Below, in pieces: positions 3 through 23,035 of a DNA stretch of 24,708 nucleotides (positions within the stretch are counted from its first letter, which is position 1; each line of letters opens with the position of its first letter). The DNA comes from a virus. The notes beneath the pieces were generated by a model, which was not told the origin of the DNA, did no database searches, and saw only the letters and a program-made list of their open reading frames with translations. The stretch is taken from positions 1 to 24,708 of IMG/VR virus record IMGVR_UViG_3300031658_000115. One strand, written 5' to 3'. A program made the translations under genes and the position numbers.

Positions 3-2027
3 TATCTGTTCGACAAAGGACGAGAAGGCACAAGGCTAGGGATGGGTAACTCTGTCATGTATACTCCTTCCCTAGAAGGTTTCAGATCTTCCCCGGAATA
101 TATTTCTAGGAATTTGAGCCCTGACAAACTTCTGGAAACAAGGATCAGGAATTACGAACAGCTGAAACTTCAATATGTTAACTCTAGCTCCACTGAAGAG
201 AGACGTGAGGTGCAGAATGCGCTGCAAAGAGTTGGCGATGAGATAAATCAGCTCAGCCAAAATGTTGATGTTGGGGGTTATACCCAGCAAAGATCCAATC
301 TCCCAGACACAAACACATTCACTCCTTCGCTCGACTTAGCACAAACCAGCAATGATGATACTCCTCCCCTTAAAGCAGATGCTGTAACTGCTGAGTCGAG
401 CACCCCAACACTTGGAGCTTCCAACACCAATCTTGATGATCTTTCCGCAGGTGCTTTAAAAGCCCTCGGAGGAGCTGAGAGTGTTCAAGCTGCATTGGAA
501 ATAGCCAAAGCTATGCAACCGAAGTTAAGAGATGTTGACCCTGCGTTGTTGGCGTTCCAGTTCTTCACCAACATGGCGGCAGAATCCAGCAAGCCAGGAG
601 CCACCGCACTAGGTGCTGCTTCTACAGCTTCTTTGGTTCCTGCTGAATATTTGATGCAAGACTTCCAAGCCCGTAGAAAAGCTGAATCAGAACTCCCAGC
701 AAATGCTATACAGATTGCTGGTATGATTAAACCACCATCAGGCACAGGCGTTGGGCGTTCGTATACAAAAGGACCACCAGTTGTTGATGAAGAAGGGGTT
801 GTGGTTAGGAGTGCTGAGGGTGCAGCGATGTATAACTACACTGTTACAGACAATGCTGGTAATACTATTGAAAATGTACAGATGCCAGATGTCTCCTCGA
901 TCGTTAAAAAGAAATTCATAACAGTTGTTGACAATCAAGCAGAAGACAATCCAGAAACTCCGATTGACGAACGACTGGTCAGAGTTGATGAAACTATTGT
1001 AAATGCTGATGCAACGGGTCGTTATGCATCCAAAGATGCTCTTGCAAAGCCATCCAAAGGGAAAAGCAGGGTTCAGGGAGCACAAGCAATTTACCAAACC
1101 AAAGAGCAAGCCACAGCGACACTTGCAAGATTCGGTGTAACTGAGGAAAGCCCAGAATTTAATGAGCTGATTAGCAACATAACAACTGAAGATCCTTCTA
1201 AACTAGGACAGCCTGTTATTATTGGAGAGCAATACGTAAGTTTCTACACCCCAGACCCTGGCAGTGGCCTAGGAGTTATCCTGAGAGCACCAACAGGAGG
1301 AACAACCCCACAATCGGTTATTGGGATGAAAAAAAGAGTTGAAGAAGCAGACAAACTGGTTGCGAAAACAAGGACCACAAGAGACGATATTGTTCCTACT
1401 CTTGAGGCTGCTATGACCATTTTAATGCAGAGTCCTGATTTAACGGGTGGTTTCACTGGTCGAGTGGCAGAGATAAGAAGTGTGCTGACTAATGTGTTTG
1501 GTGTAAATTCACAAGATGTCCAAGATCAAAAATACCTTGAAGCACTTTCTTTTGCGCTTGCTCCTAAAATGCGCCCAGTTGGTTCTGGTTCAACCTCGGA
1601 TATGGAATTCAAAGCCTACCAAAGAGCTATTTTGAGTTTAAATAATCCAGGAGCTACGAACTACTTAACTATGTACAAGTTATACAAGCAAAGTCAGAAC
1701 CAAGCAACAGATGCTATTCTCTTCAGAGACCTAGCAACTCAAGGGAAGTCGGCTGTTGAAATTGACAAAATTATAAAAGAGCAAGATTCTGGGATATATG
1801 AAAAGTTTTCACCCACCCAAAAAGATGAAAAGTATAACACAGGAGATGATGAAGCAGATACTGCAGCTTGGGTTGCGGACAGAAAAGAGTGGTACAACTC
1901 CATCCCGGATGGTGCTGTTATTCTTAATGAAGTAAACGGCAAACGTGGAACAAAACTTTTCCAAAATCAAGGTGCTTTAATTATTAAAGGTTGGAAAGGT
2001 GAACAACCAAATCTGGAGCTTCAATAA
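3..2027 (+). CDS. Large virion protein, probable internal/ejection protein (5' end likely outside window)
   Basis: The reading frame is open to the left edge, and the residues before the first ATG (position 42) look protein-like, so the gene probably begins upstream; ATG 42 with AAGG six bases before it is the alternative start (661 aa). Counting from that ATG, residues about 25-75 are charged and helix-rich (coiled-coil-like). A Thr/Ser/Pro-rich linker follows at about 80-125, then Ala-rich helices to about 210. Near residue 515-540 there is a 'GSGSTSDMEFKAYQRA' stretch of the kind I associate with large phage virion or DNA-transfer proteins. No enzymatic motif or signal peptide is seen. It directly abuts the next gene (TAA then ATG), and both belong to the rightward late operon. 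The virion role is inferred from size, composition and position, not from a decisive domain. Confidence 0.6.
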   Translation, partial: YLFDKGREGTRLGMGNSVMYTPSLEGFRSSPEYISRNLSPDKLLETRIRNYEQLKLQYVNSSSTEERREVQNALQRVGDEINQLSQNVDVGGYTQQRSNLPDTNTFTPSLDLAQTSNDDTPPLKADAVTAESSTPTLGASNTNLDDLSAGALKALGGAESVQAALEIAKAMQPKLRDVDPALLAFQFFTNMAAESSKPGATALGAASTASLVPAEYLMQDFQARRKAESELPANAIQIAGMIKPPSGTGVGRSYTKGPPVVDEEGVVVRSAEGAAMYNYTVTDNAGNTIENVQMPDVSSIVKKKFITVVDNQAEDNPETPIDERLVRVDETIVNADATGRYASKDALAKPSKGKSRVQGAQAIYQTKEQATATLARFGVTEESPEFNELISNITTEDPSKLGQPVIIGEQYVSFYTPDPGSGLGVILRAPTGGTTPQSVIGMKKRVEEADKLVAKTRTTRDDIVPTLEAAMTILMQSPDLTGGFTGRVAEIRSVLTNVFGVNSQDVQDQKYLEALSFALAPKMRPVGSGSTSDMEFKAYQRAILSLNNPGATNYLTMYKLYKQSQNQATDAILFRDLATQGKSAVEIDKIIKEQDSGIYEKFSPTQKDEKYNTGDDEADTAAWVADRKEWYNSIPDGAVILNEVNGKRGTKLFQNQGALIIKGWKGEQPNLELQ

Positions 2028-4232
2028 ATGGCGATAAATGAAAAATTAATAAATGATGAGGAAATAATCCCATCACCCCAAGAGCCTATTGCTGAAGGAT
2101 CTTCTTCAGACATAGAATTCCCGGATGTCCCAAGTGCGACAGAGATCGAAGATGTTGGATTCTTTGAATCCTTAATCCCTAATGTTAAGATTATGTTCTC
2201 AAAAGACGACAACTCCAAAGCTGAGATAATAAAAAAATCTTTCGCTGGCGACTCGAGATTCGGAGGAGTATTCTCGGATAAGTTCGGCTTGCCGATGATT
2301 GTTTGGAATGACGAGCCTTATTACATTAACAAACCAGGATTAGATTTTACAGATATCGCCACTTTCACAGGTGAGGTGATTAAATACCTACCAGCCAGCA
2401 GATATACATCTGGGGCAAAAGGAATTAAAGAAACTATCCAACGCGGGATAACAACTTATCCTGCAACCGAGGCAGCAAGCATAGCTGGGGAATCATTATT
2501 GGCTCCAGAAACTTCAAAAGCCAAAAACAGAACCTTCACAGACATTGGTCAAGAAGTAGGACTGGCCACAGGCATAGGAGTTGCAGCAGACGTTGTGTTG
2601 CCGCCAGCTTTAGGTTTAGCGGTGAAAGGTGCTGTAAAAAGTGCAACAAAAACAGCAACAGCAGCAAAGTCTGTTTTCCCGAGGTTTAATGCTGAGAAAA
2701 TAATTGAAAAAATAACTCCAGACCCAGCGCAAAAATCCGCATTCCCTTTAACAGAAGGGCAACGAGGTGCAAAGCTCCCAGACCGGAAACAGGGTCCAGG
2801 ATCAAGAGTCACAGAGCAACTCGAAGTAGAAGATGTTTTGCGTAATGCTCCAGGGACTGATCCTTCTGCTTCTGGAATTATGCGTGGGTTTGATGAAAGA
2901 CAGCTCGGGATGATAAGGGCAGAGGCTGAAAGATTACAAAAAGAGTTCGGCTCAGGCACGTTGTCTGCAGCAGAAGATGTTTCGACTGCAGCAGCAGAGT
3001 CTGTTCAAAACATAGCCACATCAGGTTCAGCAGCTATTAAAGAATTATCTTCTCAAGCATACAATGCTGTTAAAACAGCGGACATGCCTCCTATCATGAA
3101 GCCAGAAGGTGTTCTTCAAACTTCAAAAGAAATGCTAGACGCTATCACAAAAGGTGGCGACGAAGGCTTGGGGATAACTGCTCGTGAATTAGCGGATATG
3201 CCTATCCTCAGAAGAGAGCTTGAGTATCTTAAACGAATATCAAAAATCGCTAGCAATCCTAAGTTCAAAGGCCAGCCATTAAAAGTTCTGCACGGATATC
3301 AAAAATCCCTTAACAGAGCTGCAAGAACCGCGCAGGCAGGTTCTCCGGAGGCAATGGCTTTGAACAGGATGAAAGGTATTTTGGACTCTTCTATATTTAA
3401 CGGAATTGAAAGAGGGTTGATTGCTGGGGATGAAGCAATACTGAAAGAGCTTAAAAACGCGACTGATCTTTACAGACGTTATATTGGCATGACAGGGAAA
3501 GGGTCTGCGAAAGATTCTCAAGAAAGAGCTGCTAACAAAATATTAGAAACACTCTCAAACCCCAACTACACTCCTATGCAAGTTACCAGACTTTTGTTCG
3601 GACATGCAAAATTCGCACCAAGCCAAGCTCTTGGGCTAGCTATACGGAAACTGAAACAAAATTTAGGGGACGAAGGCTCTGAGGAAATAATTGCTTTAAT
3701 AAAAGACGGTTTTTTAGAAAAAGCATTCTCAGGAGCTGGGACATCTGGCATCACAAGGACTAACATTGTTAACAATTTTAATGAAATTTTTGTTAAGAAT
3801 AGAAAATTAGTAGAGGAGTTTTTCTCCCCAGCGGAGATAAAACAAATTGCTAAATTCCGGCAAGATGTCATGCCGACACTTTGGTCAGAGATTAAACTTA
3901 ACCCATCAGGCACAGGCTACACAGTGATGTCTGCGATGGCACAAAAAGGTATTTTAAATTATATTAAGATGATACCTTTTGGCGCAGGAGAAGCTCTCGC
4001 AACAGGTGCTCAAGTCCAAAGAGCAACCAATGTTGCTAGGAATGCGACCAGCCAGCAAGTTGATCGTATGAACAAACCTTTATTCTCACAGGTGGTGCAA
4101 AGTTCTGTTAGACCTCCTGCAATTGAAACAATACAAGAAGATTATGATTCACCGACTTTGAATCAAATAACAACTTCAGCCTCGCCAGCTTTGAGGTCAA
4201 AACTCCAAGAAGCAGTTATGATTGGTCCGTGA
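2028..4232 (+). CDS. Large virion protein, probable internal virion/DNA-ejection protein
   Basis: This is a 734-aa protein starting on the ATG immediately after the previous stop, so translation is probably coupled. The N-terminus is acidic (residues 1-45). A compact segment 'FGGVFSDKFGLPMIVWNDEP' lies near residue 75-95, followed by Ala/Gly-rich helical segments (about 145-215) that could be amphipathic or membrane-active. Long alpha-helical regions fill the rest, and a short Ser/Pro tail ends it. No catalytic motif is recognised. The size, helix content and last position in a rightward late operon are typical of podovirus-like internal core or ejection proteins, but this is inference. Its 3' end overlaps the convergent leftward nuclease gene by 17 bases, so rightward and leftward transcription meet here with no visible terminator. 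Confidence 0.6.
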   Translation: MAINEKLINDEEIIPSPQEPIAEGSSSDIEFPDVPSATEIEDVGFFESLIPNVKIMFSKDDNSKAEIIKKSFAGDSRFGGVFSDKFGLPMIVWNDEPYYINKPGLDFTDIATFTGEVIKYLPASRYTSGAKGIKETIQRGITTYPATEAASIAGESLLAPETSKAKNRTFTDIGQEVGLATGIGVAADVVLPPALGLAVKGAVKSATKTATAAKSVFPRFNAEKIIEKITPDPAQKSAFPLTEGQRGAKLPDRKQGPGSRVTEQLEVEDVLRNAPGTDPSASGIMRGFDERQLGMIRAEAERLQKEFGSGTLSAAEDVSTAAAESVQNIATSGSAAIKELSSQAYNAVKTADMPPIMKPEGVLQTSKEMLDAITKGGDEGLGITARELADMPILRRELEYLKRISKIASNPKFKGQPLKVLHGYQKSLNRAARTAQAGSPEAMALNRMKGILDSSIFNGIERGLIAGDEAILKELKNATDLYRRYIGMTGKGSAKDSQERAANKILETLSNPNYTPMQVTRLLFGHAKFAPSQALGLAIRKLKQNLGDEGSEEIIALIKDGFLEKAFSGAGTSGITRTNIVNNFNEIFVKNRKLVEEFFSPAEIKQIAKFRQDVMPTLWSEIKLNPSGTGYTVMSAMAQKGILNYIKMIPFGAGEALATGAQVQRATNVARNATSQQVDRMNKPLFSQVVQSSVRPPAIETIQEDYDSPTLNQITTSASPALRSKLQEAVMIGP

Positions 4233-11535: not shown

Positions 11536-12207
11536 TTATGCTCCGTATGGTATGATGCACCCTGTGAGGTACTTGTGATGTTGTTTGGATTGAAGTAAAA
11601 AGGAGACAAACTCAGCCAATCTTTCTGGTGGCGTCTCTTCCCCTGTAAGCAGCCCATTCAGCTGATACTTTTGAGCATATTCTTTCGTCCAGCCACGAGT
11701 TGCAACAACTTGATTATCAATGTCGTCGCTCATCCCAGTGTTAGACAATTTGTTTGGAGCTATCCCGAAAACTGTGATGCCATGCTTTTTTGTCAACTCA
11801 CGAGCCAGTTGCAAAGTCATGATGTGCGCAGCACCTTTTGAGGCATTGTAAGCCAAAGAGCAAGTCATAGGCATGTGTGCAGCATTACTCACTATGTTGA
11901 CAACTGTGCCTTTGTTCTTGATCAGAGCAGGCAAGCAAGCCCTTGTCATCATGTAGATGCCTTTGGCATTGGTGTCCATGACCTTGTCCCAGTCTGACTC
12001 CTCGAATTCTTCCAGCCAGTTGATTATGTTTACGCCAGCATTGTTGATAAGAACGTCAATTTCTGGTATCACAGAACCCTCTGGGTTTCGAATGTCATTC
12101 CCATCTTTTATATCGAACCCATAGACTCTGTGGCCTTGTTTTTCTAGCTCAAATTTCATAGCTTTGCCAAGACCTTCCCCAGATCCTGTTATTAAAATGT
12201 TACTCAC
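11536..12207 (-). CDS. Short-chain dehydrogenase/reductase (SDR), classical type
   Basis: This 223-aa Rossmann enzyme has a complete classical SDR set: cofactor loop T7-G-S-G-E-G-L-G14, Asp32 after the second strand ('YGFDIKD', favouring NAD(H) over NADP(H)), N55-N-A-G58, and the catalytic tetrad Asn80, Ser107, Tyr120 and Lys124. It should therefore be an active NAD(P)-dependent alcohol/carbonyl oxidoreductase; the substrate is not evident. The ATG overlaps the previous gene by 8 bases and the next gene starts one base after its stop, so it is firmly embedded in the operon. SDRs in phages are uncommon and usually belong to nucleotide-sugar or base-modification routes, but fatty-acid or sugar metabolism cannot be excluded. 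Confidence 0.9.
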   Translation of the reverse strand: MSNILITGSGEGLGKAMKFELEKQGHRVYGFDIKDGNDIRNPEGSVIPEIDVLINNAGVNIINWLEEFEESDWDKVMDTNAKGIYMMTRACLPALIKNKGTVVNIVSNAAHMPMTCSLAYNASKGAAHIMTLQLARELTKKHGITVFGIAPNKLSNTGMSDDIDNQVVATRGWTKEYAQKYQLNGLLTGEETPPERLAEFVSFLLQSKQHHKYLTGCIIPYGA

Positions 12208-12538
12208 TTTTATCCTCCTCTGGAATTAAAGATTCAATCATCGCAGCATAAACTGCGGCATCATGTATACTGTCTCTGTGAGTTAAGTTCGTATTAGCAA
12301 ACCTAGTCAATTTTACAATCATCAACTCAAAAAGATGCCAAGTATTGTAATCGTCAATTGTTTTAAGATTGACCCCATCAGGGAACAAGCCAGACATCAC
12401 AATCCCGACAGTTTTGTAATTATCTCCGTAAACTTTATTTCTCTCCTTAAATGTGGTAGCCATATCTTGGAGTATTTTAGAAGCATCATTTTTGCTCTTC
12501 GGCTCCCCTTTGCTGGAATCGTAAATAACATTATCCAT
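12200..12538 (-). CDS. DUF6378/DUF1599-like phage protein, possibly nucleotide-modification associated
   Basis: This 112-aa helical protein has 'FKERNKVYGDNYKTVG' near residues 30-45, then 'LFELMIVKLTRFAN' and a final 'HDAAVYAAMIESLI'. That R-x-x-x-YG ... KxxR ... D-x-x-xYAA pattern is what I associate with the DUF6378 and DUF1599 phage families, the latter described as nucleotide-modification associated and resembling all-alpha NTP pyrophosphatases. Biochemical function is unproven. The ATG overlaps the stop of the 72-aa gene by 8 bases, and its own stop overlaps the SDR start. The family call is from memory of the pattern. Confidence 0.6.
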   Translation of the reverse strand: MDNVIYDSSKGEPKSKNDASKILQDMATTFKERNKVYGDNYKTVGIVMSGLFPDGVNLKTIDDYNTWHLFELMIVKLTRFANTNLTHRDSIHDAAVYAAMIESLIPEEDKSE

Positions 12539-12749
12539 CTACTGCTCCCTTCATTCCTTTGTTGTAACCATCCTGCCAACCCTCTCGGTAAGCGTCCTGG
12601 TAAAATTTATTTTTGTCTGCAGGTTCTGTGTTGATCTGAGTTATCGTTTTTTCAAGCTGATCCCGCAAAGTCCCAGCAACATGGAAAACCCTAGCAACCT
12701 TTTGTCCGTTCAACTCTATGTCATTTCCTTTTAGCCTTAAATCATTCAT
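12531..12749 (-). CDS. Hypothetical protein (72 aa)
   Basis: I do not recognise this protein. ATG 12749 is chosen because it overlaps the previous stop (TGATG) and AGGAGA precedes it by about six bases; the frame to 12779 lacks a site. The N-terminal 25 residues look like a small beta hairpin ('NDIELNGQKVARVF'), followed by a helix ('LRDQLEKTITQI') and a polar 'AYREGWQDGYNKGMKG' segment. Helices ending in similar 'GWxDGY' motifs are frequent in small phage proteins. Tight overlap with both neighbours ties it to the HAD phosphatase and DUF6378-like genes. Confidence 0.75.
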   Translation of the reverse strand: MNDLRLKGNDIELNGQKVARVFHVAGTLRDQLEKTITQINTEPADKNKFYQDAYREGWQDGYNKGMKGAVDG

Positions 12750-13183
12750 CAGAAGTCTCCTGGAGCAACTTGCAAACAATTAAGTCCTTGGCCACGCCAC
12801 ATGTCGACACAACCTTTGCGATCCTCGAGGACAAACCATATCTCTCTGTAATCGTAGTTGTCGGTGAAAAGTTTTTCTTTAACATCCCAATCAGACCTAT
12901 TGTCGCCTATGCCGCGCATTAAAAGTTTATCAAAAGGAATATCATTGAGGTTGAGCCACTTCTCAGTCATCTTCCTTTCAGTTTCTTCCCGAGCAGTTAT
13001 GACTACGATCTCTGTATCGTCATCTTTCAATCTACGGAGTATGTTGCAGATGGATTCGATAGGCTTGTCGTTTATTCCTTGTTTGTTAAACTCTGTGTAG
13101 TTCCTGTCTTTGTAAAGATGCTCTCTGTGTCCGTAGTCACCGAGCGTACCATCTAGGTCAGAAATAATTACGCGCTTATCCAT
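12749..13183 (-). CDS. HAD-superfamily phosphatase, polynucleotide-kinase 3'-phosphatase-like
   Basis: This 144-aa protein has the HAD nucleophile motif Asp9-Leu-Asp11-Gly-Thr13, motif II Thr63 in 'VVITARE', a Lys around 102-104, and an acidic motif 'VLEDRKGCVDMWR' (120-130). The 'ITAR' and 'EDR...D.WR' pattern matches the phosphatase half of T4-type polynucleotide kinase (PseT), without a kinase domain. It would remove 3' phosphates from nucleic-acid ends or act on nucleotides. That fits repair of host-cleaved DNA or RNA, or nucleotide recycling. It overlaps the previous gene by 16 bases and the following one by 1. Confidence 0.85.
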   Translation of the reverse strand: MDKRVIISDLDGTLGDYGHREHLYKDRNYTEFNKQGINDKPIESICNILRRLKDDDTEIVVITAREETERKMTEKWLNLNDIPFDKLLMRGIGDNRSDWDVKEKLFTDNYDYREIWFVLEDRKGCVDMWRGQGLNCLQVAPGDF

Positions 13184-13662
13184 GATGGAGCCTCTCTGTT
13201 TGTGTATTTGGTTGCGAAGGAAATTTTCTCATTGACAATGTAGTCTCGGTATGCTTTGACTGCAAAGTTGGGGTGTTGTTTATACTGATCGGGCATGCAC
13301 TGGGGTGGCTGGCTCCAAGCAACATTTGGGCAGTTGTCTGGGTAATTTTTTAGAACACTCATCAGCTTTTGCTCAGTCTTGTGGACTTTGCCGTAACGAT
13401 GGGTGTACTCTTTGCACAGCTCAACAAAAAGATCATACGCCCAACGATAGTGCTTCCGAGAGGCACGAACCCAGACTGCTGACGGGTGATTTTTATGTGT
13501 GGACTTATACATCCCAGCCACATCAGCATAGCCATCACCATCTAACTCCCTGTGTGCGGTGCTGAGTAGTTGTGCTGTCTCAAGTATCATCTTCACACAG
13601 TGCTTGTCGCAATGCATACTTGCAGCAATCTTAGGGTAATGATGTAAATAAAATATGTTCAT
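13168..13662 (-). CDS. Conserved phage protein of unknown function (164 aa)
   Basis: Start at ATG 13662, behind CTGAGAAAGGAATTATC; the frame extends to 13725, but that part is coding for the 52-aa gene in another frame. It has a compact His/Cys/Trp-rich sequence: 'MHCDKHCVKMILETAQLLST' at about 16-35 (His, Cys, Asp, His, Cys, a possible metal or active site), 'HKNHPSAVWVR' near 55-65, and 'QPPQCMPDQYK' near 125. I believe similar proteins occur widely in tailed phages without assigned function. The clustered His and Cys residues suggest metal binding, but no enzyme family can be named. It leads into the HAD gene with a 16-base overlap. Confidence 0.8.
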   Translation of the reverse strand: MNIFYLHHYPKIAASMHCDKHCVKMILETAQLLSTAHRELDGDGYADVAGMYKSTHKNHPSAVWVRASRKHYRWAYDLFVELCKEYTHRYGKVHKTEQKLMSVLKNYPDNCPNVAWSQPPQCMPDQYKQHPNFAVKAYRDYIVNEKISFATKYTNREAPSWISA

Positions 13663-13675
13663 GATAATTCCTTTC

Positions 13676-13834
13676 TCAGGCAATTTTAATAGTGATCTCA
13701 TCCAAAGGAGTTTCACCCGACTCATGCGACTTCAACCAATCCTTAATTTCACTCAAAGCTGTGGAAGATTTGCGCTTAATAACACAATGTTTAAACCCGC
13801 ACTCATCAGTAAAATATATTATATATTTAGTCAT
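13676..13834 (-). CDS. Small hypothetical protein (52 aa), first gene of the polymerase operon
   Basis: ATG 13834 follows TTGAGAAAGGAAAAAATA, the phage-wide ribosome-binding block, about 30 bases after a good promoter. The TGA falls within the CTGAGAAAGGA of the next gene, so the two are tightly linked. The product has an N-terminal beta hairpin ('KYIIYFTDECGFKHCVIKRK') and an amphipathic helix ('TALSEIKDWLKS'). I do not recognise a family. The promoter, ribosome-binding site and spacing make it a confident gene despite its size. Confidence 0.8.
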   Translation of the reverse strand: MTKYIIYFTDECGFKHCVIKRKSSTALSEIKDWLKSHESGETPLDEITIKIA

Positions 13835-13863
13835 TATTTTTTCCTTTCTCAATTGGAATAGTA

Positions 13864-13892
13864 ATTATACTCTATATGGCAGAAAAAGTAAA
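13864..13892 (-). promoter_or_regulatory. Sigma-70-type promoter for the 13834-7499 operon
   Basis: Minus strand: -35 TTTACT (13892-13887), 17-base spacer, -10 TATAAT (13869-13864). Bases after the -10 (TATAATTACT) match the promoter at 16612-16640 (GATAATTACT). It lies 2 bases past the stop of the HTH-like gene and 30 bases before ATG 13834. No leader hairpin is seen in this short leader. Confidence 0.75.
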
Positions 13893-13894
13893 GT

Positions 13895-14089
13895 TCATTT
13901 CCGAGTGAAAAGGTCTCGGATTCTAGAAAACAAAGACTTTGGAGTTGGATTCCTCCTACGGATTATGTATTTGACTCTGTCTGTGTTTTTGCCCCACCCC
14001 ATTAGCCTGGATATCGTTTTGTAATTTGAACCAGAATTTTTAAGGTCGTGCACTCTGTCTACTGTTGCTTGATTGAATCTCTCTCCCAT
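13895..14089 (-). CDS. Small basic protein, HTH-like (64 aa)
   Basis: ATG 14089 follows AAAGGATAGAGAC and lies 4 bases after the ThyX stop. Residues 7-35 ('ATVDRVHDLKNSGSNYKTIS' then 'RLMGWGK') resemble a resolvase- or MerR-like helix-turn-helix that recognises DNA through the 'NYKTISRLMG' helix, followed by a very basic tail ('RRRNPTPKSLFSRIRDLFTRK'). The protein could be a transcription regulator of the phage promoters or an architectural DNA binder. The HTH assignment is by eye only. It is the last gene before the promoter at 13864-13892. Confidence 0.65.
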   Translation of the reverse strand: MGERFNQATVDRVHDLKNSGSNYKTISRLMGWGKNTDRVKYIIRRRNPTPKSLFSRIRDLFTRK

Positions 14090-14093
14090 GTCT

Positions 14094-14744
14094 CTATCCT
14101 TTTGGGTTAAGGGCTTTGCCCATTGAGGGTGCAGCCCATTCGGTTGGTGTTAGAAAAGGTTCTGCCCATGGATGGACTTTAACAACTTCAGCCACCATCA
14201 TTTTAAAAACCTCTTGGTATTCGCCTTGTGCTCTTGGTGAGAGTCGGGACTTGGCCATTTCACTCAGTGTGCGCAAATTGAATTTTGCTACAATGTTTGT
14301 ATGAATGTTGGTTGGCAATACCCCACGAGCATCTTCAGCTGGGACGTGTTTGCGGAGTTTCTGGTAGTAATAGTTTATTGTTTTCATACACTCATCATAA
14401 TACGTTTTTGCATCTTCATCATTTTCAATCTCAGGAGGTGTGTAATAGCTGAAGCCACTCATGTCGACTGTGCGCTGAGACTGCTGGGCGTAGGATGCTT
14501 GTCGGGTGCGAACGAACTGGTGAGTGAAGCCACGTGTCACATCTCTTATGTTAAATACGTAATCTATAAACTCCCAAGACGAGCGTATTGTTTTCAACAT
14601 ATAATCTAACTCTGATTGTTTCTTTTCCCACTCCCACTGGGCGATGGTTTTGTAAGCATCATCATCCGGCATAAGTCGAGTGTTCTTTGTGAATAATAAA
14701 AGATTGACTGCGTCCTGTGTGTAATTTACCAATTCTACTTTCAT
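14094..14744 (-). CDS. thyX: Flavin-dependent thymidylate synthase ThyX
   Basis: This 216-aa enzyme converts dUMP to dTMP using methylenetetrahydrofolate and FADH2. The ThyX signature RHRxxSxxxxSxR is present with exact spacing as R79-T80-R81-x-x-S84-x4-S89-x-R91, so the usual His is Thr here. The C-terminal nucleotide-binding part ('GVLPTNIHTNIVAKFNLRTL' and 'SRLSPRAQGEYQ') is also typical. Its ribosome-binding site AAGAAAGGAAATTAAC is encoded within the 3' end of the preceding flavin oxidoreductase gene, whose stop is one base before the ATG, so the two flavoproteins are co-translated. It supplies dTMP for an AT-rich phage genome, unless the substitution signals a changed substrate. Confidence 0.95.
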   Translation of the reverse strand: MKVELVNYTQDAVNLLLFTKNTRLMPDDDAYKTIAQWEWEKKQSELDYMLKTIRSSWEFIDYVFNIRDVTRGFTHQFVRTRQASYAQQSQRTVDMSGFSYYTPPEIENDEDAKTYYDECMKTINYYYQKLRKHVPAEDARGVLPTNIHTNIVAKFNLRTLSEMAKSRLSPRAQGEYQEVFKMMVAEVVKVHPWAEPFLTPTEWAAPSMGKALNPKG

Positions 14745-18160: not shown

Positions 18161-19696
18161 TTAAAATTCTCCTGCTAAGTTTGATGGTATGTCGAGTTCG
18201 TCTGAATCGTCATAGAATTCTGGAGCTGGGACTGACCAAACTTTTACTGGCTTTTTCTTTAAACGCCAAGATGCTCTGTCGCCACCTGATTCTCGTAACC
18301 AACTCCAAACCTGATGCTGAGATAAGTATCGGAAACGTCTTGCCTCAAGATATAAAAATAAATCTTCTGAACGGAAAAACATCTTGGATGTTTCCTCGTC
18401 GTAATACGGCTTGCCATTCATTATTTCGTCTTTGTGTCGGGCTTGTACTTTCCCTGTTAAGAAAGCATCCAACATTTTCTCAAATTGACCTTGAGGCGAT
18501 GCATCGTCTGGGTCTTGAACAATCTCAACCGTTGTTAACAGTTCATTGATACGTTGCTCCCACTTTGGGGCTGGGAGTTTGGAGGGACACTTGTTGAGTT
18601 TCTCGATACATATTTTTTGTAGCTGACTTTGGTCCATCAACTGAAGAGTGGTGACCTCGATGCGCTCTCCTTGCATCTCGAGATACCAACGCACAGAACT
18701 CCGGTTCTCGGTTTCGTACTTTGTGATGGAGTCGATTTGCATTGCTGCACCACCCGAGAATCCACCGATACCGAATTCACGCTTCATGCACTTGGGCTTC
18801 TCACAGTAGTTGCATATTGGGGACTGCTTGCAGGTGTAGGCGTAATCTTTTTTACTCACAGACTTTATAAGTCCATTCACCTCAGAGCTCGGCAATGGAT
18901 TTTCAATTTCATAGTTAAACGCAAACAAGTCCTCTTGCCAGTCGTCGGGGTTTTTCTTCCGGAAATAAACTCCTGCATTGAACAGCGATATGTTCCGACC
19001 ACCTTCCGGGAAACCCATCGTCATGATGTGCTGGAGGCAAGGTGGTCCATCCTCGAACTTGGCGGTGAGTTCAGGTTTGAATGATTGTAGCTTTTCCCAA
19101 GTTGTTCTTTTTTTCTCAGCAAGATCTAAAAACTTTTCCAGCGAGAGTTTCTTGCCTTTGTGTATTGCGTAGCGTTCGCTTTTGTCCCCATTCCAGTACG
19201 CGAGGTTGATCCAATTGCCTCGATCCTGCGCATTGGCTCGGCTGATTTGCTTGGGGAAGATCTCCGCACCACCATAACCCATTGTCGCGGCAAACTCGTT
19301 GAGCTTGGAAACCATGTCGACTGCGGCAATTGGCGGATCACAAAACAAATACAAATGCGCACCACCACTCTTCGAACGACAAAGCACAAGTGGAGTTTTT
19401 TCTATTTTCCGCTCTAAATCTTCAAGAGTGTCGTGCAGCTTAACATCACCACGAATGTCTACATCAATTGCTCCAAAGCTGCATGAGTTGTCATCACGCA
19501 ACATAATAATTCCTAAAATATAATCCTTACCACTCAAATGAGATTCAAAATGAGCCTGTGTTGGTCCCTCAGAGATCGTGATTGCTCTGCCTGCTTTTTT
19601 CCCATCTGCCTCGGTTCGCTTGACGCTGTACTGTCCGTGGGCTTTGGTGTAGCCTTGGAACAGATTCATGAAGCGTTTTAAATTGGTTACTTCCAT
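18161..19696 (-). CDS. Archaeo-eukaryotic-type (AEP) DNA primase with zinc motif
   Basis: This 511-aa protein is a primase of the AEP/Prim-pol superfamily. Its catalytic pieces are in order: Asp78-x-Asp80 in 'FGAIDVDIRG', 'SKSGGAHLYLF' with His114, and 'EIFPKQ' (145-150), resembling primases of TOTE-type systems. Next comes a PriCT-like helical part with 'GGRNISLFNAGVYFRKKNP' (232-250) and a four-Cys site at 289, 295, 298 and 303. The C-terminal 180 residues are unassigned. ATG 19696 follows CTTAGAAAGGAAGACTTAAAC, after a strong leader hairpin. It makes primers for the DnaE polymerase; bacterial DnaG-type and T7-type motifs are absent. Confidence 0.88.
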   Translation of the reverse strand: MEVTNLKRFMNLFQGYTKAHGQYSVKRTEADGKKAGRAITISEGPTQAHFESHLSGKDYILGIIMLRDDNSCSFGAIDVDIRGDVKLHDTLEDLERKIEKTPLVLCRSKSGGAHLYLFCDPPIAAVDMVSKLNEFAATMGYGGAEIFPKQISRANAQDRGNWINLAYWNGDKSERYAIHKGKKLSLEKFLDLAEKKRTTWEKLQSFKPELTAKFEDGPPCLQHIMTMGFPEGGRNISLFNAGVYFRKKNPDDWQEDLFAFNYEIENPLPSSEVNGLIKSVSKKDYAYTCKQSPICNYCEKPKCMKREFGIGGFSGGAAMQIDSITKYETENRSSVRWYLEMQGERIEVTTLQLMDQSQLQKICIEKLNKCPSKLPAPKWEQRINELLTTVEIVQDPDDASPQGQFEKMLDAFLTGKVQARHKDEIMNGKPYYDEETSKMFFRSEDLFLYLEARRFRYLSQHQVWSWLRESGGDRASWRLKKKPVKVWSVPAPEFYDDSDELDIPSNLAGEF

Positions 19697-20462: not shown

Positions 20463-21263
20463 TTAAAAGCTATCAGAGCTCTCACCACTTGTCTCTTCTT
20501 GCTTAACTTGGACTTCGCCTGCTTTGACTTGTTGTTGGAACTCTCTGGCGGAAAGATAAATGTCTTTTCCGTTCGGGAGTTGCTGGATTATGCCTCCGCT
20601 GTTGGCGTCGTACAACATCTTCACTGACCACCCGAACCAAGTGCCTTGATCATTTTCTTGAGGCACTGTGGAGAGCTGATATGCGTTCCAAAAAGCTGCA
20701 GCAGGAACACGCTTATCTTGGACTTGGATCACGAGACTCTGCATCATTGAGTTCCACTGGCGAGCTTTTTTATTTTGGCTCTTGGACATGCTGATTGAAG
20801 CTGGAGCGTATGAATCGTCCTCACCCAAAACATAAACAAAAAACTCTGATGTTGGAACAATCTCATTGCCTTCTGTGGTGATGTGCTCTCCCCGAGGCCC
20901 ACGCTCACAAGCTACGAGGCATTCACTCGAGGCTCCGTGGTCAGCAACAAAACCTCCTCTGTTGGCTTTCCACTCAAGGTGTGCTTTGCGGAAACTGATC
21001 GGGACAACTGTGATGCCTTTGTCTCCATCATACAACTTATCAGTAACATTGTTGAAGATTAAACCTTGCTCAGCACCTTCAATGTACGCACCATCACGTT
21101 TGTTGACTTGGGGGCTGAGTGCTTGGAGAATGCTCAAGCGCGGGATCATTATGTCGTCTTTGGTGATGTTCTCTAATCCGAGACCAGCGTCTGCGAGCAG
21201 GACTGATTCATCAAAAACCACAACTTCACTACTTTCTTTTTTTGCTACTTCGTTTTTAGCCAT
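20463..21263 (-). CDS. Putative single-stranded DNA-binding protein
   Basis: This 266-aa protein is of a kind common in phages near recombination and replication genes. The core has 'DDIMIPRLSILQALSPQV' (about 36-53), 'GLIFNNVTDKLYDGDKGI' and 'VVPISFRKAHLEW' (beta-rich, OB-like). It ends in a flexible acidic tail 'EETSGESSDSF' with a terminal Phe, as in SSB and T7 gp2.5 tails that recruit partners. ATG 21263 follows AAAAAAGGATAAACAAC. Its position next to the Gam-like protein and upstream of primase, helicase and polymerase supports a replication role. The SSB call rests on tail and context, not on a recognised family. Confidence 0.5.
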   Translation of the reverse strand: MAKNEVAKKESSEVVVFDESVLLADAGLGLENITKDDIMIPRLSILQALSPQVNKRDGAYIEGAEQGLIFNNVTDKLYDGDKGITVVPISFRKAHLEWKANRGGFVADHGASSECLVACERGPRGEHITTEGNEIVPTSEFFVYVLGEDDSYAPASISMSKSQNKKARQWNSMMQSLVIQVQDKRVPAAAFWNAYQLSTVPQENDQGTWFGWSVKMLYDANSGGIIQQLPNGKDIYLSAREFQQQVKAGEVQVKQEETSGESSDSF

Positions 21264-21268
21264 GTTGT

Positions 21269-21862
21269 TTATCCTTTTTTAATGTTGGCACGTCTGCCAG
21301 TGAATACGCGAAAAAGTTCCATTGGAACATCTTTGCCAGCCTCCATGCGCTCTTTGACGAAGCCATTAAGCGTTTGGGGATGGACAGCTGTTGCTTGCTT
21401 GTAGTTCAGATTGTGATCACGGAGTTGATCTGTAAAATTCTTACAGTCTTGCTCCTCACCACGACCGAACTTAACCTCAACTGCGCTTTTAATTAAATCT
21501 GCGCCACCGTTCTCACGCAACCAATTAAAACACTGCTGTTGCAGCACTATGAGCTCCGCACGCACACTTTCCTCTTTTGCGCGTTCAATTGCGCCTGATG
21601 AGGGGATGGTGGCTTGTATGATGGGTTTGACCTCGATGGAGAAGCCGTCTGTTAATTCAAACGACCGCATATTGAGTTCTTGCATCATGTCGGGGACATC
21701 GTGCTCTGCCAACATTCTGAGATTCTGCTTCTTTTGCTTCAGCAACTCTTCATCACGTTCGATCTGTTTTTCTAGATCAACCATCTTCTGAGCCAAATCC
21801 GCTAATGCACCTATTTCTTTATTGGATGCTGGTGCCACATCCGCGAGCAGATCTATTTCCAT
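21269..21862 (-). CDS. Coiled-coil early protein, Gam / DUF7173-like
   Basis: The 197-aa product has a long coiled coil at about 18-55 ('LAQKMVDLEKQIERDEELLK'), then a beta-rich part 'LNMRSFELTDGFSIEVKPII', and a C-terminal half with 'NFTDQLRDHN' and 'VHPQTLNGFVKERMEAGKDV'. This order resembles phage proteins described as host-nuclease-inhibitor Gam-like or DUF7173. If so, it would protect DNA ends from host exonucleases. ATG 21862 follows AAGAAAGGAACACAATGTA. A minimal ATG-TAA lies between the binding site and the ATG. It is next to the SSB-like gene, 5 bases apart. Confidence 0.55.
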   Translation of the reverse strand: MEIDLLADVAPASNKEIGALADLAQKMVDLEKQIERDEELLKQKKQNLRMLAEHDVPDMMQELNMRSFELTDGFSIEVKPIIQATIPSSGAIERAKEESVRAELIVLQQQCFNWLRENGGADLIKSAVEVKFGRGEEQDCKNFTDQLRDHNLNYKQATAVHPQTLNGFVKERMEAGKDVPMELFRVFTGRRANIKKG

Positions 21863-21879: not shown

Positions 21880-22239
21880 TTATTTACGAAGCTCAAGTGC
21901 CACAGGCATGTACCAACCTTTGCGCCTGTCACGCTCTCCTTCTTCCATGTTGCGCTCCCAACGGAGCACTCTTACTGTTGGGGATTTTTCGGAGGCAATC
22001 ATACAACAGATCATCACCGCGATTGGATCCCCACCTCCTGGCCAGAGCAGATAATCCTCTGGGCTGAAGTCTTTCATTATCTCACGAGCTTTGCGGATGC
22101 TTGGTGCGGGAACGAACTGGGGCTGATCACTTGCCTCGAAAACAACTTCCAACGCACCATAACGTGCAGCATCAGACAAATCCGGTGTCCAGCCAAACTT
22201 GTTGCGGACTGGGCGATTAACTACATAAACTTTTTGCAC
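21880..22239 (-). CDS. Conserved early phage protein of unknown function (119 aa), GTG start
   Basis: The frame is open to 22314 with a TTG, but the phage-wide block ATGAGAAAGGACAGAAA sits just before GTG 22239, so this GTG is chosen. The product carries 'LSDAARYGALEVVF' (about 21-34), 'SPEDYLLWPGGGDPIAVMIC' (about 59-78) and 'VRVLRWERN', a pattern I associate with small early proteins of many tailed phages. Function is unknown; there is no signal peptide. It is the first gene of the leftward early operon, right beside the putative origin region. Confidence 0.75.
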   Translation of the reverse strand: MQKVYVVNRPVRNKFGWTPDLSDAARYGALEVVFEASDQPQFVPAPSIRKAREIMKDFSPEDYLLWPGGGDPIAVMICCMIASEKSPTVRVLRWERNMEEGERDRRKGWYMPVALELRK

Positions 22240-22269
22240 TTTCTGTCCTTTCTCATTTGTTGAAGGTTT

Positions 22270-22298
22270 ATTATGCCTGAACGCGGGCACAAAAGAAA
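22270..22298 (-). promoter_or_regulatory. Candidate promoter for the leftward early operon
   Basis: Minus strand: -10 CATAAT (22275-22270) with TTTCTT (22298-22293) 17 bases upstream. The downstream CATAATAAA resembles other phage -10 regions here (GATAATAAC, TATAATAAA). The -35 is weak. It lies 30 bases before GTG 22239 and inside the rejected longer frame. Confidence 0.45.
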
Positions 22299-22314
22299 CA
22301 AAAATCTTGCCCAA

Positions 22315-22543
22315 CGAAACCAGAGAACCCAGACTTTGTGGTTTCGCAGTTGTTTTTGGACCCGTCCTTGGAAAATCATAGATAAGTATAAGGGAAGATT
22401 TTTTGTTGTTTTTTATTTTTTAAAATTCTCAGGTTTTTGTGGAGTCTGGTTTCGTTGGTGTGTTTTATTTAATTAAATCAAAGACATAAGAGTGGAACCG
22501 AACCCGAAACCTAAAGATAAACGAAACCGCATCTCTGGTTTCG
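22315..22543. repeat. Iteron-like array of CGAAACC/GGTTTCG, candidate origin or operator region
   Basis: Six exact copies of the heptamer lie in 229 bases: CGAAACC at 22315-22321, 22505-22511 and 22522-22528; GGTTTCG at 22340-22346, 22448-22454 and 22537-22543. Longer matches exist: TCTGGTTTCGTTGG at 22445-22458 is an inverted copy of 22311-22324. Between them are AT-rich stretches (22400-22428, 22461-22478). It occupies the divergent non-coding region between early operons. Whether it is an origin, an operator cluster or both cannot be decided from sequence alone. Confidence 0.7.
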
Positions 22544-22582
22544 ATTTATTGTAAGTCTTTGTTTTTAATGAGAACATAGTTG

Positions 22583-22611
22583 TTGCCTTTATGACAGAAA
22601 AGAGGGATAAT
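22583..22611 (+). promoter_or_regulatory. Sigma-70-type promoter for the rightward early genes
   Basis: -35 TTGCCT (22583-22588), 17-base spacer, -10 GATAAT (22606-22611), nearly identical to 6772-6800 and 16612-16640 on the other strand. The transcript starts about 22618, has a small GGGA/TCCC hairpin (22621-22636), then the ribosome-binding block for ATG 22658. Confidence 0.88.
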
Positions 22612-22657
22612 AACTGCATTGGGAAGAATAACTCCCTTAACTGAGAAAGGAAACAAA

Positions 22658-23035
22658 ATGACACAACGTGAAATAAAATATGAAAGCCCAGCACACAAAA
22701 TCTTTGAAGGCAAAGGTGAGTACAAAGATAATGATGTTATAGCGATAGCATTTGAGTCAAAAAACTACGGCACTCTGCATCGTTTTTACACTTTAGGCAG
22801 TGTTGTTGGATACGCAATCGATAATTGCAAATGCCCATTTGAGTCAGTTGAAAGAGAAAAAGAGCTTGGTCATGAAATTCACTGGGCAAACCAAAACTCA
22901 AGCATGATTACTAGCCATGAACGTGCGCAGGAATATTCATTCATGCAAAAGCATGGCGATAAAATTAAATTCCACGGCAAGACTTTTGAGATTGTCCCAA
23001 CACCAAATAACAACATATCTCTTAAATTAGTATAG
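22658..23035 (+). CDS. Hypothetical early protein (125 aa)
   Basis: ATG 22658 is chosen because CTGAGAAAGGAAACAAA precedes it; the frame opens 13 codons earlier with TTG, which would include the leader hairpin. I do not recognise a family. It has an N-terminal basic segment, a central beta-rich part ('DVIAIAFESKNYGTLHRFYT'), two Cys ('NCKCPFESV'), a helical charged part ('HERAQEYSFMQKHGDKI') and a short beta tail. No membrane segment. It is the first gene of the rightward early unit beside the iteron region, often the place of host-takeover genes. Confidence 0.75.
   Translation: MTQREIKYESPAHKIFEGKGEYKDNDVIAIAFESKNYGTLHRFYTLGSVVGYAIDNCKCPFESVEREKELGHEIHWANQNSSMITSHERAQEYSFMQKHGDKIKFHGKTFEIVPTPNNNISLKLV

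Follow-up and report, generated by a model that had tools for sequence, protein, structure and literature searches.

The DNA analysed here is the entire IMG/VR virus record IMGVR_UViG_3300031658_000115, and this whole stretch of 24,708 bp is referred to below as the window. In it, leftward and rightward genes diverge from a non-coding gap that contains several copies of the heptamer CGAAACC, or GGTTTCG on the other strand. Besides those listed below, the leftward genes encode a UvrD-type helicase, a thymidylate-synthase-like protein, a DnaE-type polymerase and a SNF2-type helicase, while the rightward genes encode small unknowns and the small and large terminases. The genes and sequence elements considered are as follows.

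18161..19696, − strand: AEP primase carrying the PriCT_1 helix-bundle domain, a candidate for the protein that reads the array
20463..21263, − strand: Pam3 gp34-like protein
21269..21862, − strand: Pam3 gp33-like protein (DUF7307)
21880..22239, − strand: Pam3 gp32-like protein (PF23992, E 2e-20), whose gene opens the leftward replication operon
22240..22657: entire divergent non-coding module, candidate origin/regulatory region, between the GTG (22239, − strand) and the ATG at 22658 (+)
22315..22330, + strand: left cluster, CGAAACC 22315-22321 and GAACCC 22325-22330, 9 bp apart; relatives have tandem + sites there
22340..22346, − strand: GGTTTCG, additional inverted site of the left cluster, present too in relatives L001 and L005
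22358..22367: near-palindrome GGACCCGTCC by the presumed leftward transcription start, conserved in the alignment of 40 relatives
22385..22390, − strand: leftward −10, TATACT, in a conserved block (TATAAT in L001, L003 and L033)
22395..22440: AT-rich tract between the left and middle clusters, candidate unwinding element
22448..22454, − strand: middle cluster, GGTTTCG, a single copy here; most relatives have two in tandem, 7-9 bp apart
22476..22488, − strand: IHF-like site, one mismatch
22500..22511, + strand: right cluster, GAACCC 22500-22505 and CGAAACC 22505-22511
22522..22543: right palindrome CGAAACC-N8-GGTTTCG, then a T-rich stretch; N7/N8 palindrome in relatives
22552..22564, + strand: IHF-like site TAAGTCTTTGTTT with one mismatch; L006, L011, L044 and L070 match the consensus exactly there
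22583..22611, + strand: rightward sigma-70-type promoter TTGCCT-17-GATAAT, at the same place in relatives

The near-palindrome at 22358-22367, which reads GGACGTCC in L048, is possibly a separate operator. As for the genes, the model of the gp32-like protein (pLDDT 90) has its best, weak matches among CARF/SAVED ring nucleases; the protein might bind or cleave a cyclic-nucleotide signal, and a GGGDPIA motif is conserved in it. The genes at 11536-14744 encode the thymidylate-synthase-like protein, a short-chain dehydrogenase, a PNKP-type phosphatase and a pyrimidine-dimer-glycosylase-like protein, which may constitute a base-modification/repair cluster, and two long proteins of 661 and 734 aa without a PHROG or Pfam match are encoded at 42-4232. 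An 84% identical copy of the first rightward gene (22658-23035) lies downstream of the primase in the close relative L005 (9965-10339), a position that points to recent gene movement.

The repeated word and its non-coding gap

An earlier note on this DNA had described six exact copies of the heptamer at 22315-22543, and all six are present, at 22315(+), 22340(−), 22448(−), 22505(+), 22522(+) and 22537(−). Only two others, at 12084(−) and 18710(−), occur in the entire 24,708-bp record, over which 2.1 copies would be expected by chance; since the record is the entire IMG/VR fragment, extra copies could be sought in relatives only. In a scan of all 7-mers, CGAAACC forms the top cluster of the record (6 copies; runner-up 4), and its clustering in the gap exceeds that in dinucleotide shuffles (p = 0.003, 300 shuffles of the gap). 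A heptamer equally frequent elsewhere would have counted against a special role, and this is not the case, the densest 7-mer cluster of the record being here. GAACCC, a word of the same class, occurs at 22325 and 22500, and both sites are counted as part of the array. Clustered copies of a short sequence in one non-coding region are a feature of iteron origins.

Among the longer matches pointed out before, the inverted copy of 22311-22324 at 22445-22458 is real and exact over 14 nt, and the second is also real but one nucleotide longer than had been given, with 12 nt shared between 22315-22326 and 22532-22543. Similarly, the 229 bases regarded as non-coding are indeed so, but the true gap is larger (22240-22657, about 418 bp), because the leftward gene most likely begins at the GTG at 22237-22239. 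This start sits behind AAAGGA, and the alternative TTG at 22314 is disfavoured. The AT-rich tracts between the repeats and the diverging transcription units that had been claimed are both supported. On the leftward side, no good −35 was found with the TATACT −10, and the transcription start is a presumed one. The DnaA-box pattern gave four exact matches across 29 regions, none of them in the studied record.

Conserved geometry and concerted change in close relatives

Searches with gp34 and the primase yielded about 100 viral loci, from which 54 non-redundant upstream regions were extracted. About 40 relatives with the same primase and neighbours carry clustered GAAACC, GTTACC, GTTCCC or GAACCC at the corresponding place; the exact heptamer is kept in a subset of them, and the others have one of the last three words there. 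That the heptamer might not be conserved while the neighbouring genes are had been named as evidence against the proposal, and literally this is half true, since the exact heptamer varies, but the place, the geometry and the word class are kept. In most close relatives, the densest 350-bp cluster of the word class exceeds all 200 shuffles (p = 0.005), and with a degenerate word the array region is the densest 350-bp place in 6 of 7 longer records, with a tie in G002. The distant loci L022-L026 are without a word-class cluster.

The module has a common order, namely one-way tandem sites, the leftward −10, the AT-rich tract, opposing tandem sites, the palindrome, an IHF-like site and the rightward promoter. 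In the aligned relatives, the left side has 2-4 tandem sites of the same orientation, 8-9 bp apart, and the first two left sites are 31 bp apart in 17 cases. The middle cluster has one or two tandem sites of the opposite orientation, 7-9 bp apart, and the right-hand sites are located at 45/46, 67/68, 74/75 and 87/88 bp from it, the last two being the palindrome. Both the site order and the spacings, whose comparison among related phages had been proposed as a check, are therefore kept. AT content peaks between the clusters, with a mean of 76-78% over 60 bp to the left of the middle cluster (34 relatives); as a sequence feature, this corresponds to the adjacent AT-rich element of an iteron origin. 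IHF-like sites are enriched in the 34 relatives, with 8 exact sites vs. 0.8 expected and 48 vs. 19 when one mismatch is allowed, and the site keeps a fixed place. Many relatives also have a TTGCCT-17-GATAAT-like promoter.

The word class has switched at least seven times on the primase tree, and the copies within a phage switch together. The word of the middle cluster is also found in the left cluster in 27 of the 27 phages tested, vs. 13.5 expected (p = 0.0005, a value inflated by shared descent), and the right cluster tracks the word more loosely (p = 0.03 and 0.37). Such concerted change of the left and middle clusters is the behaviour that would be expected of sites read by one protein. 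Because place, geometry and word class are kept and the copies change together, the pattern speaks more strongly for function than a fixed word would. A column-by-column covariation analysis of 11 proteins against the word gave nothing above the phylogenetic background, the signal being confounded by descent.

The left and middle sites remain complementary while changing, which would also suit an RNA or single-strand structure in which the inverted sites pair within a transcript. This is the least probable of the explanations considered. The presumed leftward transcript begins between the left and middle clusters, and consequently the two do not share one RNA; in addition, copy numbers and spacers differ between the two sides, single-strand folding of the region is unremarkable (z −1.5), and the Rfam search returned no match.

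Arrays and replication genes in distant phages

Five cultured phages, PMBT28, K21lambda1, Kokobel2, Bhz9 and JeffCo, have primases that are 31-33% identical to that of the window, and a similar array occupies a gap of about 430 bp directly upstream of the primase gene. The words are TGGAACG in PMBT28 and K21lambda1, TGGAACC in Kokobel2, GGAACC/GTAACC in Bhz9 and GGTAAC in JeffCo, with a tandem spacing of 8-9 bp and inverted copies 45-60 bp further on. Shuffle tests back the arrays of PMBT28, Kokobel2 and Bhz9 (p 0.003-0.017), and the primase-side array of JeffCo, taken alone, is not significant (p = 0.11). In each of the four whole cultured-phage genomes, one more array occupies a different non-coding gap, roughly antipodal to the first. 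These second modules are as follows.

L140: 42900-43070
L141: 43644-43910
L142: 14182-14434
L143: 43298-43530

In JeffCo, Bhz9 and Kokobel2, inverted arms of 17-25 nt, 180-200 nt apart, enclose the module on the primase side.

The marine family and the cultured phages have in common the primase, the SNF2 helicase, the UvrD helicase and gp32-34, but differ in polymerase and gene order. Since the array and the replication genes are shared in spite of these differences, the array goes with the replication module; linkage to replication genes across relatives is likewise a feature of iteron origins. No array was found in ct3Et533 or in the examined part of DSL-LC04, despite their related primases, and upstream of gp32 in 023Pt there is no array or no gap. 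CRP-901/902 were considered as relatives and rejected, as they have only the terminase in common and a different prim-pol.

A search of 2.9 million viral contigs with 19 bases from the double middle site gave 10 matches, all 10 in this family and beside gp32, and at least three of the matched contigs are new to the collected relatives. The 16-base pattern GCGGTAACGNNGGTAACG was discarded, its matches being mostly coding-repeat noise. The shorter GGTAAC pattern was found mostly in repetitive coding sequence; two dense arrays of it in unrelated phages, chosen by eye out of 80 loci, lie at replication genes: in L192 (1346-1530) at the 3' end of a gene for a VapE-like protein, and in L175 (3084-3330) inside the gene of an AAA_25 helicase, with a DnaG-like gene beside it. 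The literature search found no origin described for PMBT28, the diaminopurine Acinetobacter phages or Loki, and the host search in genome contigs gave distant matches only.

The small terminase gene is 1-3 kb from the array in the marine family, and repeats with IHF-like sites near it recall lambda cosB. The small terminase could then use the array for packaging, as a cos or pac site, which we regard as highly improbable. Adjacency to the small terminase does not hold across relatives: in PMBT28, Bhz9 and JeffCo, at least about 20 kb separate the primase-side array from the terminase end of the map, a distance that speaks against packaging. Moreover, near-complete contigs end at differing places, and G011 closes on itself.

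The main rival to an origin is an array of operators, on which a phage or host regulator would control both divergent promoters, for example by looping between the left and middle clusters, with no role in replication. The clusters stand on both sides of the leftward −10, with a good rightward promoter downstream of them; the arrays of the isolates likewise precede promoters, and the pair of arrays in each isolate genome could form a small regulon. As the module contains promoters too, transcription control alone could conserve it. Several observations speak against this explanation, and we hold it to be possible but rather unlikely. The sites fall outside the core promoters, and dimeric regulators do not usually have tandem sites spaced at 8-9 bp. 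The repressor and integrase genes that would accompany a cI-type operator of a temperate phage were not found as HTH_3 (PF01381) or tyrosine integrase (PF00589) in 8 records, some of which may be fragments. The 64-aa HTH-like protein, put forward earlier as a binder, occurs in just 3 of 40 relatives. Finally, where gene order differs between phages, the array stays with the replication module.

A candidate origin and its likeness to known systems

The conservation of the module in relatives and its tie to replication genes even in distant phages favour an origin. Therefore, of the two designs suggested in the earlier note, an origin with an iteron-like array is preferred, and the master operator is still a live alternative. 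With a probability of slightly less than 0.6, the 418-bp gap is a replication origin combined with the divergent promoters of the early/replication and the packaging-side operons. Cumulative GC skew, which had been proposed as a check, reaches its minimum no more than 500 bp from the region in six relatives, but does not discriminate: it was set aside as evidence for an origin because the gene strand switches at the same place, and there is no skew switch at the array in isolates whose genes all lie on one strand.

If the gap is an origin, its clusters of a 6-7 bp site (CGAAACC), in tandem at 8-9 bp and facing each other, would flank the AT-rich stretch; a protein of the replisome would bind the sites cooperatively, host IHF would help to bend the region, and the AT-rich stretch would open, so that synthesis could begin on both strands. 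The reader would be a protein that travels with the array; the leading candidate, only by analogy with NrS-1 and SCCmec, is the AEP primase, which carries a PriCT/helix-bundle domain. Its model has a confident AEP fold, with the best PDB matches to CAPP prim-pol, followed by RSF1010 RepB' and S-2L PrimPol, and a weak match to NrS-1. Compared with RepB' (3h20), the Foldseek E value is 2.7e-4 but the TM-score is 0.34, and CAPP prim-pol is closer. Other candidates are gp32-gp34 and one of the two helicases, SNF2-type or UvrD. The 119-aa protein, another binder suggested before, belongs to the Pam3 gp32 family, and its model resembles the Rossmann folds of CARF/ring nucleases, not a DNA-binding fold. 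If the primase reads single strands, the left sites (template − strand) would prime rightward across the AT stretch and the middle sites (template + strand) leftward, like IncQ RepB' at ssiA/ssiB.

In a narrower version, which we consider unlikely, the phage's own AEP primase would recognise the array as its specific start signal, made of tandem hexamers on opposite strands and used without a separate initiator. Hexamer switching would then mark replication-specificity groups, and co-infecting relatives could not start each other's DNA. Alternatively, the array might serve as template priming sites only, where the AEP primase starts primers while opening takes place elsewhere or by transcription. 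The PriCT/helix-bundle domain of the primase and the presence of the NrS-1 word TTTGGTTA at array sites in L002, L077, L078, L048, L080 and L102 agree with this, but the exact 8-mer is absent from the studied record, the structural similarity of the primase to NrS-1 is weak, and the many tandem copies exceed what priming needs; such a role is very unlikely.

For a large, globally sampled, uncultured family of marine phages, an origin here would provide a defined start site and a set of candidate initiators. The word has changed naturally at least seven times at unchanged geometry, so that protein residues can be matched to it in the search for the reader of an origin. A further prediction of the comparison is that several cultured phages with PurZ-type genes of base-modified (Z) genomes have two origins.

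Among known systems, the origins of SaPI and SCCmec (SaPI Rep; Cch2 with CCPol-MP) likewise have iterons of 5-6 bp, clustered next to their replication genes. Two sets of repeats flank an AT-rich stretch there, and each Rep is specific for its own repeats. Unlike in those elements, the array here is upstream rather than downstream of the genes, with inverted geometry and IHF-like sites, between divergent promoters; no initiator helicase of the Rep/VapE/D5 type was found among the record proteins scanned, the helicases being of the SNF2 and UvrD types. The polymerase-primase of SCCmec starts preferentially at iterons (PMC7581432).

IncQ plasmid RSF1010 is similar in its opposed elements on two strands, and RepB' (3h20) is among the best structural matches of the record's primase. 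At ssiA/ssiB, the recognition elements are arranged on two strands. The differences are that the RepC iterons of RSF1010 are separate from its hairpin ssi sites and that the array has no such hairpins; the sites here are 6-7 bp, not iterons of about 20 bp, and neither RepC nor RepA was found among the scanned proteins. In RSF1010 oriV, opposed recognition elements are used with the AEP-fold primase RepB' (PMC4234260).

The AEP polymerase of the marine phage NrS-1 starts at TTTGGTTA, which occurs once per strand at the proposed origin (PMC8718748, PMC7102993). An AEP enzyme and a short template word are common to both, a similar word being present at array sites of some relatives, but NrS-1 has two copies of the word rather than an array, the structural match is weak, and the studied phage has a separate DnaE-type polymerase. 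The lambdoid ori with its O-protein iterons and the origins of SV40 and papilloma viruses likewise place short repeated sites beside an AT-rich element. The lambda iterons are about 18 bp long and lie within gene O, and the sites of the SV40 origin are GAGGC pentamers, bound by a hexameric helicase. Compared with these systems, the array adjoins an AEP-primase replisome without a recognised initiator, and would represent an iteron origin with very short, close-set and mirrored sites, in which the word switches repeatedly and the geometry is constant.
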